The translations under genes were made by a program, and so were the position numbers. From NCBI RefSeq assembly GCF_900166635.1, contig NZ_LT800497.1, positions 2,198,378 to 2,262,377 of the forward strand: a stretch of DNA of 64,000 nucleotides, written 5' to 3'. Below the pieces are notes generated by a model. It was given only the letters and a program-made list of their open reading frames with translations, had not been told where the DNA came from and ran no database searches. Position 1 is the stretch's first letter. Every line of letters starts with the position of its first letter. This document shows positions 31,397 through 36,088 of the stretch, piece by piece. Origin of the DNA: Oceanobacillus timonensis. Its GTDB lineage: Bacteria > Bacillota > Bacilli > Bacillales > Amphibacillaceae.

Positions 31397-31425
31397 TTGA
31401 CAAAAACTTCTTCTACACATATAAT
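31397..31425 (+). promoter_or_regulatory. Consensus SigmaA promoter of the tRNA pair
   Basis: Perfect TTGACA (31397-31402), a 17-base spacer and perfect TATAAT (31420-31425), 57 bases before tRNA-Gly. A full consensus promoter is typical of stable RNA genes. Confidence 0.92.
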
Positions 31426-31481
31426 ATTACTTGTCCGTTAAAAACGGCGTACATAATAAGAGAGATAAACGTACAGTAATT

Positions 31482-31555
31482 GCGGGTGTAGTTTAATGGT
31501 AAAACCTCAGCCTTCCAAGCTGATGACGAGGGTTCGATTCCCTTCACCCGCTCCA
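31482..31555 (+). tRNA. tRNA-Gly (anticodon TCC)
   Basis: 74 bases including an encoded CCA. The acceptor stem GCGGGTG pairs with CACCCGC; the anticodon stem TCAGC/GCTGA encloses the loop CTTCCAA with TCC in the middle; the T arm contains GGTTCGATTCC. Confidence 0.97.
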
Positions 31556-31560
31556 TTCTT

Positions 31561-31634
31561 GTCCCAGTAGCTCAGTAGGATAGAGCAATAGCCTTCTAAG
31601 CTATGGGTCGCAGGTTCGAATCCTGCCTGGGACA
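31561..31634 (+). tRNA. tRNA-Arg (anticodon TCT)
   Basis: 74 bases up to the discriminator A. The acceptor stem GTCCCAG pairs with CTGGGAC; the anticodon stem encloses CTTCTAA with TCT in the middle; the T arm contains GGTTCGAATCC. TCA follows instead of CCA, so the CCA end must be added after transcription. It lies five bases after tRNA-Gly, on the same transcript. Confidence 0.97.
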
Positions 31635-31639
31635 TCATC

Positions 31640-31682
31640 AAAAGTCGTACAGCGCCGGGCGTTGTAGGGCTTTTCTTTTTTT
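31640..31682 (+). terminator. Terminator after the tRNA pair
   Basis: AAAAGTCGTACAGCGCC pairs with GGCGTTGTAGGGCTTTT with a few mismatches and is followed by CTTTTTTT. Confidence 0.85.
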
Positions 31683-32961: not shown

Positions 32962-34248
32962 ATGACAACAAAATGGGAAAAACAAGAAGACAACAAAGGA
33001 GTATTAACGTTTGAAGTTTCTGCAGAAGAATTTGATCAAGCGTTAGACCAGGCATTTAAAAAAGTATCAAAGGATGTCCAAATTCCTGGATTCCGTAAAG
33101 GAAAAATACCTCGCAGTATTTTTGAAAAACGCTTTGGGGTAGAATCACTTTATCAAGATGCAGTAGATATTGTACTTCCGGGTGCTTATTCTGCAGCAGT
33201 TGATGAAGCAAACATTTTCCCAATTGCGCAACCATCGATTGATATTGACCAGATTGAAAAAGGACAGCCGCTTGTTTTCACTGCTGAAGTAGAAGTGAAA
33301 CCGGAAGCGAAACTTGGTGAATATAAAGGATTGGAAGTAGAAGAACAATCTGTAGAAGTAACTGATGAAGATGTAGAACAAGAAATTGAAAATCTTCGTG
33401 AACGTCATGCAGAATTAGTTGTTAAAGAGGATGAAGAAATTGAAGAGGGCGATACAGCCGTAATCGATTTTGAAGGATTCAAAGATGGTGAGCCGTTTGA
33501 AGGCGGTAAAGACGAAAATCATTCATTGGAAATTGGTTCCGGACAATTTATCCCTGGATTTGAAGAACAATTAATCGGTAAAAAAGCCGGTGATGAAACA
33601 GAAGTTCCAATTACTTTCCCTGAAGAGTATCATGCAGAAGACCTGGCTGGTCAAGAAGCTGTGTTTAAAGTGAAAATTCATGAAGTGAAAGCGAAAGAAC
33701 TTCCTGAATTGGATGATGAATTCGCTAAAGACGTAGACGAAGACGTTGAAACGCTTGATGAGTTAAAAACGAAAAAACGGGAAGAGCTTGAAGCAAACAA
33801 AAAACAGCAAGCTGAAAACGAAAAACGGGAAGCATTGGTTCAACAAGTCACAGATAATGTGGAAGTAGACGTACCGAAAGCAATGGTAGATACGGAAGTG
33901 GATCAAATGTACCGTGAATTTGAACAGCAGCTTCAAATGCAGGGAATGACAATGGAAATGTACAGTCAATTCTCCGGTCAAGATGAGAATGCATTAAAAG
34001 AGCAAATGCGTGAAGATGCTGAAAAACGCGTGAAAACAAACCTTGCTTTAGAAGCAATTGTTGAAGCAGAAGACTTGAAAGCTAGTCAAGAAGACATTGA
34101 CGCGGAACTTGAGAAAATGAGTTCCATGTACGGTGTTGAAAAAGAGCAACTTGTACAAATGCTTGGCGGTTCAACAGAAATGCTTGAAAATGATCTGAAA
34201 ACACGTGCTGCTATTGACTTCTTAGTGGAACACAGCACAACAAAATAA
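32962..34248 (+). CDS. tig: Trigger factor
   Basis: Ribosome-bound chaperone and peptidyl-prolyl isomerase. The ribosome-binding signature [17 protein letters not shown] is near residues 43-59. The FKBP-type PPIase domain is at about 150-245 and the C-terminal chaperone arm at about 250-428. From the ATG at 32962 it is 428 residues; TTGGAGGG precedes that start, unlike the in-frame ATG at 32932. The protein is strongly acidic in its middle part. Confidence 0.97.
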
Positions 34249-34487: not shown

Positions 34488-34515
34488 TTGACATTTAAAA
34501 GAAATAATGCATACT
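34488..34515 (+). promoter_or_regulatory. Candidate SigmaA promoter of the small ORF and clpX
   Basis: TTGACA (34488-34493), a 16-base spacer and CATACT (34510-34515). A separate TATAAT at 34473-34478 lacks a good -35. Either would place the small zinc-finger ORF and clpX on one transcript. Confidence 0.55.
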
Positions 34516-34593
34516 GGAATGACAGAGTTACCATGCAATGGACTAGAAGAATTGTATAAAGTATATTGTTTTGTATTTCTATATGTATCTGAT

Positions 34594-34818
34594 ATGATGA
34601 ATTATAAAGCTGACTGCTGGCCTGTCATAGCTCATGAGAAAGCGGGTGGAGTTGTTTCAAAGATAAATGTTGAGAATGGCCAGTCCCAATGCTCTTTTTG
34701 TGACAGGAACGAGGAAGAGGTTCGAAAGTTAGTGGCAGGTTCAGACGTTAATATATGTAAAGAAGTGTTGAGAAAGTCTCAGAGATTGTTTAGGAAGGCG
34801 GCGAAAAGTAATGTTTAA
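34594..34818 (+). CDS. Small ClpX zinc-binding-domain paralogue
   Basis: A 74-codon frame (from ATG 34594) whose second half resembles the ClpX N-terminal zinc-binding domain: 21 of 38 residues match ClpX residues 1-38, including CSFC and VRKLVAG. Cys33, Cys36 and Cys55 are kept; the fourth zinc ligand is Val58 (ICKEV for ICDEC). Nine of the 21 shared residues use different codons. The frame overlaps clpX by eight bases (ATGTTTAA). The residue matching ClpX Met1 is Val (GTT), and no ribosome site precedes ATG 34594 or the other in-frame ATG at 34507, so its start is uncertain. It could be a decaying duplicate or a small ClpX-related protein. Confidence 0.5.
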
Positions 34819-36088
34819 ATTTAATGAAGAAAAAGGGCAGCTAAAATGTTCTTTTTGTGGCAAAAGTCAAGAACAGGTCCGTAAGCTGGTAGCTGGTCCC
34901 GGTGTTTATATATGTGATGAATGTATTGAATTATGTACAGAAATTGTTGAAGAGGAGCTTGGCACAGAGGAAGGCATGGAAATGAATGAAATTCCAAAGC
35001 CGAAAGAAATCTGTGATATCCTGGATGATTATGTTATCGGCCAGGATAAAGCGAAAAAGAACCTTTCTGTCGCAGTATACAATCACTACAAACGTGTTAA
35101 CTCCGGTATGAATAACGGAGACGTAGAAATAGCGAAAAGTAATATTGCAATGATTGGACCGACTGGTAGCGGGAAAACGTTATTAGCTCAAACATTAGCG
35201 AGAATTATTAATGTTCCATTTGCAATGGCGGATGCGACATCCTTAACAGAAGCAGGATATGTCGGGGAAGATGTAGAAAATATTCTTCTCAAGCTAATTC
35301 AATCTGCTGATTATGATGTAGAAAAAGCAGAAAAAGGCATTATTTATATCGATGAAATTGATAAAGTAGCCCGAAAATCTGAAAATCCGTCTATTACAAG
35401 AGACGTATCCGGAGAAGGTGTACAGCAGGCTCTTCTAAAAATTCTTGAAGGTACAGTGGCAAGTGTTCCTCCTCAAGGCGGAAGAAAACATCCACATCAG
35501 GAATTTATTCAAATCGATACAACCAATATCCTCTTTATTGTCGGTGGGGCATTTGACGGAATTGATCAAGTGGTTAAACGCCGTATCGGTAAAAAAGTGA
35601 TTGGTTTCGGAGCCAATGAAGAACAAGAAGAATTGACTACAGCAGAGCTGTTAACGAAAGTTCTTCCAGAAGATTTACTTCGTTATGGACTCATTCCGGA
35701 ATTCATCGGACGTATTCCAGTAATTGGCAGCCTGACACCATTGGATGAGGATGCGCTTATTGAAATTCTTACCAAGCCAAAAAATGCATTGGTCAAGCAA
35801 TATCAAAAGCTGTTTGAAATCGATAATGTCGAGCTGGATTTTGAAGAAGAAGCACTGAATGAAATTGCTAAAAAAGCAATTGAACGAAAAACAGGTGCAA
35901 GGGGTCTTCGCTCTATTATTGAAGGGATAATTGTAGACGTCATGTTCGATCTTCCATCCAGGGAAGACGTTGAAAAATGTGTCATTACAAAAGATACAGT
36001 TATCCAGGAAAATGGCAGTCCAAAACTTGTTTTCCAGGATGGCACCGTTCAAGAAGGAAATGAAAAATTCCCAAAAGAAAGTGCATAA
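34811..36088 (+). CDS. clpX: ATP-dependent Clp protease ATP-binding subunit ClpX
   Basis: AAA+ unfoldase that feeds ClpP. The N-terminal zinc domain has Cys13, Cys16, Cys35 and Cys38. Walker A GPTGSGKT, pore loop GYVGEDVEN, Walker [10 protein letters not shown], the RKH loop ([10 protein letters not shown]) and the ClpP-contact loop VIGFGAN are all present. 425 residues. The start overlaps the preceding small ORF; AGGAAGG at 34792-34798 gives a somewhat long spacing of 12, so translation may be coupled to that ORF. lon follows after 191 bases. Confidence 0.97.

Follow-up and report, generated by a model that had tools for sequence, protein, structure and literature searches.

Three papers outline the role of the N-terminal zinc-binding domain of ClpX. 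In B. subtilis, this domain and the adaptor YjbH are reported to mediate the control of Spx, the domain is described as sensitive to oxidation, and CmpA is named as another ClpX adaptor (PMC5506225). In Caulobacter, adaptor- and substrate-specific degradation is reported to hinge on the ClpX N-domain (PMC5422525), and a third paper reports that the isolated, immobilised zinc-binding domain binds peptides built on an SspB-derived XB anchor in vitro (PMC12373786). Because the N-domain works with adaptors in these reports, and the isolated domain binds XB peptides, a free copy of the domain should be able to occupy adaptors, and we infer that such a copy may have done so in Oceanobacillus. Among the matches listed from the open-licence literature (titles and abstract openings), none describes a duplication of the clpX 5' end or a free ClpX zinc finger in this genus.

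The locus analysed here lies in a 64,000-nucleotide stretch of Oceanobacillus timonensis DNA (hereafter the window), where a short open frame sits between tig and clpX. The features of this neighbourhood are the following:

32962-34248: tig (trigger factor), the upstream neighbour
34594..34818, forward strand: present-day open frame of 74 amino acids, combining leader sequence, the zinc-finger copy and a frameshifted tail
34652..34810, forward strand: decayed first copy of the clpX leader and codons 1-48, from alignment with six sister copies, clpX and relatives that do not carry the duplicate
34811..36088, forward strand: clpX, 425 amino acids, intact (TIGR00382, 692.4 bits)

Our reading, held with high confidence, is that a duplication in one clade gave rise to a free ClpX zinc finger whose codons show signs of past selection, that this copy has since been broken in six of the seven genomes that carry it, and that in the window genome it is a pseudogene and part of the clpX leader. 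The trigger factor of the window shares 90-91% identity with those of Oceanobacillus sp. CFH 90083 and O. sojae NBRC 105379, and further named matches reach at most 75%.

The longest form of the frame in the ORF list starts at 34507 and has 103 amino acids; the start at 34594 gives 74, and the frame then runs eight bases into clpX, whose ATG is at 34811. The Pfam family zf-C4_ClpX (PF06689) matches the frame with 41.9 bits (E 9.4e-11; curated cut-off 27 bits), covering only positions 2-28 of the 39 in the profile. At the DNA level, self-BLAST aligns the copy with clpX codons 12-40 at 72% identity over 85 columns (E 2.9e-8). Given this score and this DNA match, the resemblance to the clpX zinc finger is far above chance, and the sequence-only reading, which had placed a ClpX zinc-finger paralogue directly before clpX, is borne out. 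Elsewhere in the window, two minus-strand ORFs at 31413-31641 (47 and 44 amino acids) overlap the genes for tRNA-Gly and tRNA-Arg (31482-31636). Short peptides over tRNA genes are often wrongly annotated as proteins, and these two are very likely spurious.

The expression signals around the copy belong to clpX:

34488..34515, forward strand: candidate distal clpX promoter P1 (TTGACA, 16 nt, CATACT; 10 of 12 consensus matches)
34570..34598, forward strand: predicted proximal clpX promoter P2 (TTTTGT...TCTGATATGAT), with an extended -10 element TGATATGAT and the -10 hexamer at 34593-34598
34792..34801, forward strand: Shine-Dalgarno of clpX, from the 3' end of the copy (AGGAAGGCGG), by reading of the sequence

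A promoter scan of the region returns nine promoter-like sites where 6.0 are expected, so the scan on its own says little for P1. The 33-nt block around P1 is near-identical in the seven species with the duplicate (0-1 mismatches), against 9-15 mismatches in the remaining 27; several of the latter carry TTGAC...CATAAT (TTGACTTTTT...CATAAT) at a comparable place upstream of clpX. In 33 of 34 genomes, the window included, the 13-nt P2 motif TCTGATATGATGA occurs with no more than two mismatches; the remaining genome has three. Taken from these motifs, clpX seems to have two promoters, P1 and P2. The ATG at 34594 falls inside the TATGAT -10 box (34593-34598) and that at 34597 in the box or at its edge; both exist because the clpX promoter is conserved, even in species without the copy. 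As the earlier reading had noted, no Shine-Dalgarno is seen before ATG 34594 in the window sequence. A transcript from the candidate P1 would include both ATGs, yet no ribosome site precedes them, and translation of the frame 34594-34818 in the window genome appears unlikely.

A second PF06689 match is found by profile search in 7 of 58 genomes, and in six of these (G000, G007, G014, G018, G019 and G025, all of the same genus) it lies directly upstream of clpX; the seventh (G045) is weak and located elsewhere. Family-wide, counting matches per genome, 7 of 159 genomes have two, i.e. the same six and G070. Self-BLAST of 34 tig-clpX intergenic regions (28 from the genus and six from other genera) detects a copy of clpX in seven (E <=3e-8), adding the badly decayed copy of G008, and none in the other 27, where the best E value is 0.04 or worse. 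Absence from all relatives, named beforehand as a sign of a decaying duplicate, is thus not what the 34 genomes show. A scan of 110 loci, some of which are the same places as in the 34 genomes, flagged three: L084 and L085 are genuine (genomes G008 and G025), and L128 was rejected as a chance match (E 0.044, far from clpX). Searched against 28 genomes of the genus, the window DNA matched 19, comprising the seven duplicate bearers at E <=1e-44 and 12 weaker matches; 11 of these cover the clpX promoter, clpX itself or both, and the one in G011 lies at another place. The intergenic region has no match to plasmids.

The seven bearers form one Oceanobacillus clade with 100/100 support in a tree of tig and clpX, and their sister group (G009 and G027) has no copy. 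This tree excludes the first 150 nt of clpX and was built from 19 of 34 rows after the other 15, most of them more distant, had been removed; forks inside the clade are weakly supported (60/63 to 83/95). The distance from TCTGATATGATGA to the clpX ATG is 46-56 nt in 21 genomes of the genus without the copy and 199-212 nt in the seven with it. Specifically, it is 53 nt in G009 and G027 and 211 nt in G018, a gain of 158 nt that equals 144 nt (48 codons) plus 14 nt of leader. In G018 the alignment between the first copy and clpX begins at the ribosome site, includes Met1 and extends to codon 48, after which the sequence enters GGCGGCGAAAAGTAATG, the leader of the second copy. Because the copy is restricted to 7 of 34 regions, because those seven are a single clade at 100/100, and because promoter-ATG spacing is longer by 144+14 nt, these alignments show a single tandem duplication of ~158 nt (14 nt of leader and clpX codons 1-48), placed between the clpX promoter and clpX on the stem of the clade. 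GTTGAGG in clpX resembles GTTTAGG in the leader of relatives, which suggests slippage at a short repeat. Recent gene conversion from clpX was considered and left no sign: in G018, 43 of 144 sites differ between the copy and clpX. Against the other six copies the G018 copy has 27-38 differences over 114-138 sites.

In the window copy, alignment shows that the start codon of the intact sister copy is gone and that two bases are inserted behind it, in agreement with the earlier observation that the equivalent of ClpX Met1 has been lost as a start. At the fourth cysteine codon a single base is missing (between 34764 and 34765), and further on the ancestral frame runs into a stop at 34791-34793. 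The copy keeps three of the four zinc-ligand cysteines (CxxC...CxxC), one short of the full set. The fourth had been described as replaced by valine; its loss is real, and comparison with the six sister copies shows that it results from the one-base frameshift and not from a substitution. Likewise, the eight-base overlap with clpX is present as reported, although its meaning changes, since it arises where the frameshift carries the frame beyond its old stop. A functional gene has a start codon and a ribosome site within its transcript, a combination that the window copy lacks; a coupled gene pair has a stop-start overlap and a ribosome site for the first gene, and here the first frame is without such a site. 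The copy does carry inactivating lesions relative to intact orthologues, as a pseudogene would. Decay, which the sequence-only reading had kept as its alternative, is consistent with the lost start, the frameshift and the ancestral-frame stop, and the window copy is best read as a pseudogene of a free ClpX zinc-binding domain that underwent ordinary decay. From its sequence, it would now serve at most as a longer clpX leader with the clpX ribosome site.

Six of the seven copies are broken, the window's included, by four different sets of lesions. For example, G007, G019 and G025 have one common stop, G014 has a different stop and a 3-nt deletion, and G008 has several frameshifts; the losses appear to have been independent. 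Read in the frame of G018, five of the six sister copies contain stop codons, a result that had been set in advance as favouring decay. All four cysteine codons are kept in two of seven copies only, G018 and G014, the latter with its stop.

The only intact copy of the seven is that of G018, a 54-aa frame with no stop and 66.6 bits on PF06689. Its protein (52-54 aa) has four cysteines, with an ATG at the position of ClpX Met1 and TAGGAGTGA upstream, and its stop-start overlap with clpX is TAATG, one base being shared; it thus has, in its sequence, both the overlap and the ribosome site of a coupled gene pair. The 52-aa form matches, at 100% identity over all 52 aa, a protein cluster named for O. 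oncorhynchi subsp. incaldanensis (six member sequences, 12 contigs), and on this protein identity we provisionally assign G018 to O. oncorhynchi. In Oceanobacillus sp. J11TS1 a protein also of 52 aa and with four cysteines, but of different sequence, is named 'ClpX C4-type zinc finger protein' by its source. The J11TS1 and G018 proteins have derived residues in common and carry one and the same junction tail, ICNECV.K.SEIVEEGG.K, an indication that both go back to a single duplication, and the tail suggests that the J11TS1 copy, too, adjoins clpX. Over positions 13-48 the two intact proteins share 30 of 36 residues, over positions 1-12 they share 2 of 12. Intact proteins P0001 and P0002 score 67.3 and 67.5 bits on PF06689 (profile 2-39), both keeping four cysteines, and the structures closest in sequence to P0001, which they match over residues 12-48, are those of the ClpX zinc-binding domain (E 1.5e-12 to 5.5e-12).

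The different parts of the copy have diverged unequally. The 3' 44 nt are the best conserved, with 90% mean pairwise identity, vs 79% for the zinc finger, 74% for the leader and 59% for the N-terminus. Past selection on the protein had been proposed from codon differences between the copy and clpX; that argument is confounded by synonymous changes in clpX, and a codon model comparing duplicates with one another, which removes this confounding, still gives signs of selection on part of the tree. When the crown of the three genomes that have one stop in common (the trio crown) is set apart, dN/dS on the other branches is 0.32 for the zinc-finger codons 13-43 (P = 0.0008 against 1) and 0.53 for codons 1-43 (P = 0.015), in a class that still includes the end branches of broken copies, among only seven short sequences, and on a branch split chosen after the shared stop and the pairwise ratios were known. 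None of 139 neutral simulations (completed of 200 planned) reaches the codon 13-43 statistic (largest 7.4 vs 11.3) or the ratio. Inside the trio crown, the ratios are 3.2 (codons 13-43, P = 0.09) and 1.4 (codons 1-43, P = 0.58), neither differing from 1. With one ratio for all seven copies, values are 0.55 (P = 0.043) for codons 13-43 and 0.64 (P = 0.054) for codons 1-43, and the same codon model finds no constraint on codons 1-12 (0.72, P = 0.51). The G018 branch alone is not significantly below 1 (0.46, P = 0.15 for codons 1-43; 0.42, P = 0.25 for codons 13-43). A model that also includes the clpX copies was saturated (60 iterations), and none of its duplicate classes is separable from 1 (P = 0.89 for the stem and internal class, 0.15 for G018 and 0.24 for the decayed class). 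Outside the trio crown, the zinc-finger codons thus show signs of purifying selection at some phase. In neutral simulations from the G018 sequence that count substitutions alone, start and frame survive in 6-17% of copies at divergences of 0.37-0.20 substitutions per site; since neutral survival thus has a probability of 0.06-0.17, the persistence of intact copies is suggestive of selection and not decisive.

Had the copy never functioned, drifting neutrally since birth with its intact forms left by luck, one would expect much of what is seen: six of seven copies broken, a 6-17% chance that start and frame survive, and a G018 branch that by itself does not reject a ratio of 1. We consider this unlikely, however, because the ratio of 0.32 outside the trio crown was matched in none of the simulations, and the intact proteins agree far better in their core than in their first 12 residues. 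More doubtful still is that the remnant was retained to regulate clpX as an RNA, whether as leader or as attenuator. It persists in all seven genomes of the clade and its 3' end, with the clpX Shine-Dalgarno, is 90% conserved, but the ribosome site alone explains that conservation. In addition, the window leader folds like its shuffles (z 0.13; 103 of 200 as good), the consensus fold of six of the seven leaders has changes on both sides in 1 of 43 pairs, and Rfam gives two matches only, both far below gathering scores.

We give very little credence to a working protein in the window genome, i.e. a three-cysteine domain made from the 74-aa frame that would act as a competitor for ClpX adaptors and link its own translation to that of clpX. 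In its favour, 74-103 codons are open, the score is above the Pfam cut-off, three of four zinc cysteines are retained, and the candidate P1 could provide a transcript with ATG 34594; against this, the start is lost, no Shine-Dalgarno is seen, both ATGs lie in or at the -10 box, and the one-base deletion with the ancestral-frame stop puts the C-terminal part out of frame. The coupling and the free competitor domain put forward by the sequence-only reading are unlikely here because the overlap on which they drew follows from the frameshift. Both are plausible, judging by sequence, in G018/O. oncorhynchi and J11TS1, where the 52-aa protein is intact.

Where intact, the first copy encodes a 52-aa free ClpX zinc-binding domain ending in TAATG. 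Under the preferred reading of a once-selected, now mostly broken free zinc finger, this domain would have been translated from the clpX mRNA at a ribosome site of its own, ribosomes reinitiating on clpX after termination, and could have occupied ClpX adaptors or substrates, or paired with the domain of ClpX, thereby tuning ClpXP delivery. The free zinc finger was probably a lineage-specific decoy or partner for ClpX adaptors. In the window genome, the copy would be left solely as a longer clpX leader holding the clpX Shine-Dalgarno. A bolder proposal, which we put forward tentatively and think possible but less than even, is that O. oncorhynchi and J11TS1 make a real 52-aa protein, TAATG-coupled on the clpX mRNA and in fixed ratio to ClpX, that acts as built-in competitive inhibitor or heterodimer partner for adaptors (for example the YjbH-Spx route). 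If true, an unfoldase would have gained a self-derived anti-adaptor by partial duplication, only for it to be lost several times in sister species.

The locus offers a traceable case in which an enzyme's regulatory domain was duplicated as a free small protein in front of the enzyme's own gene, apparently retained for some time, and then broken in several sister species. The intact copies would allow a natural experiment on how a free ClpX zinc-binding domain affects proteolysis that depends on adaptors. For annotation the window copy is a warning: a frame can be open, exceed the Pfam cut-off and overlap the next start, and yet be a pseudogene. Overall we regard the interest as moderate: it comes from the intact, probably selected versions in sister species, the window feature itself being ordinary.

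Among known systems, the closest is the N-terminal zinc-binding domain of ClpX itself (PF06689; PDB 1OVX, 2DS5-2DS8), which the intact P0001 resembles in its four cysteines and over residues 12-48. Unlike that domain, the copy stands apart from the AAA+ part, and the version in the window is without its start, its frame and the fourth of its cysteines. Stand-alone proteins with a ClpX-type zinc finger are likewise small, match PF06689 and have no AAA+ part. Two stand-alone ORFs in other genomes, L168:1483-1890 (minus strand; G070; 135 aa) and L169:1153-1611 (G045; 152 aa), combine a long N-terminal part with a C-terminal ClpX-type zinc finger. That of G045 is just under the Pfam cut-off (25 vs 27 bits), that of G070 is unlinked, being on a contig other than that of clpX, and on their sequences the two are possibly a separate small family. 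Most of the 15 examined, from 120 listed of 421 short relatives, resemble cut-off ClpX N-termini. Siminovitchia fordii J1TS3_37010 (77 aa) and the 135-aa ORF of G070 have an N-terminal extension of their own, whereas the Oceanobacillus copy is a tandem one behind the clpX promoter. It also resembles known cases of partial tandem duplication with pseudogenisation, i.e. a copy of the 5' end only, with one origin and several different inactivations. It differs from an ordinary partial duplication in its signs of a phase of purifying selection, and in that the end of the copy is still the ribosome site of clpX.
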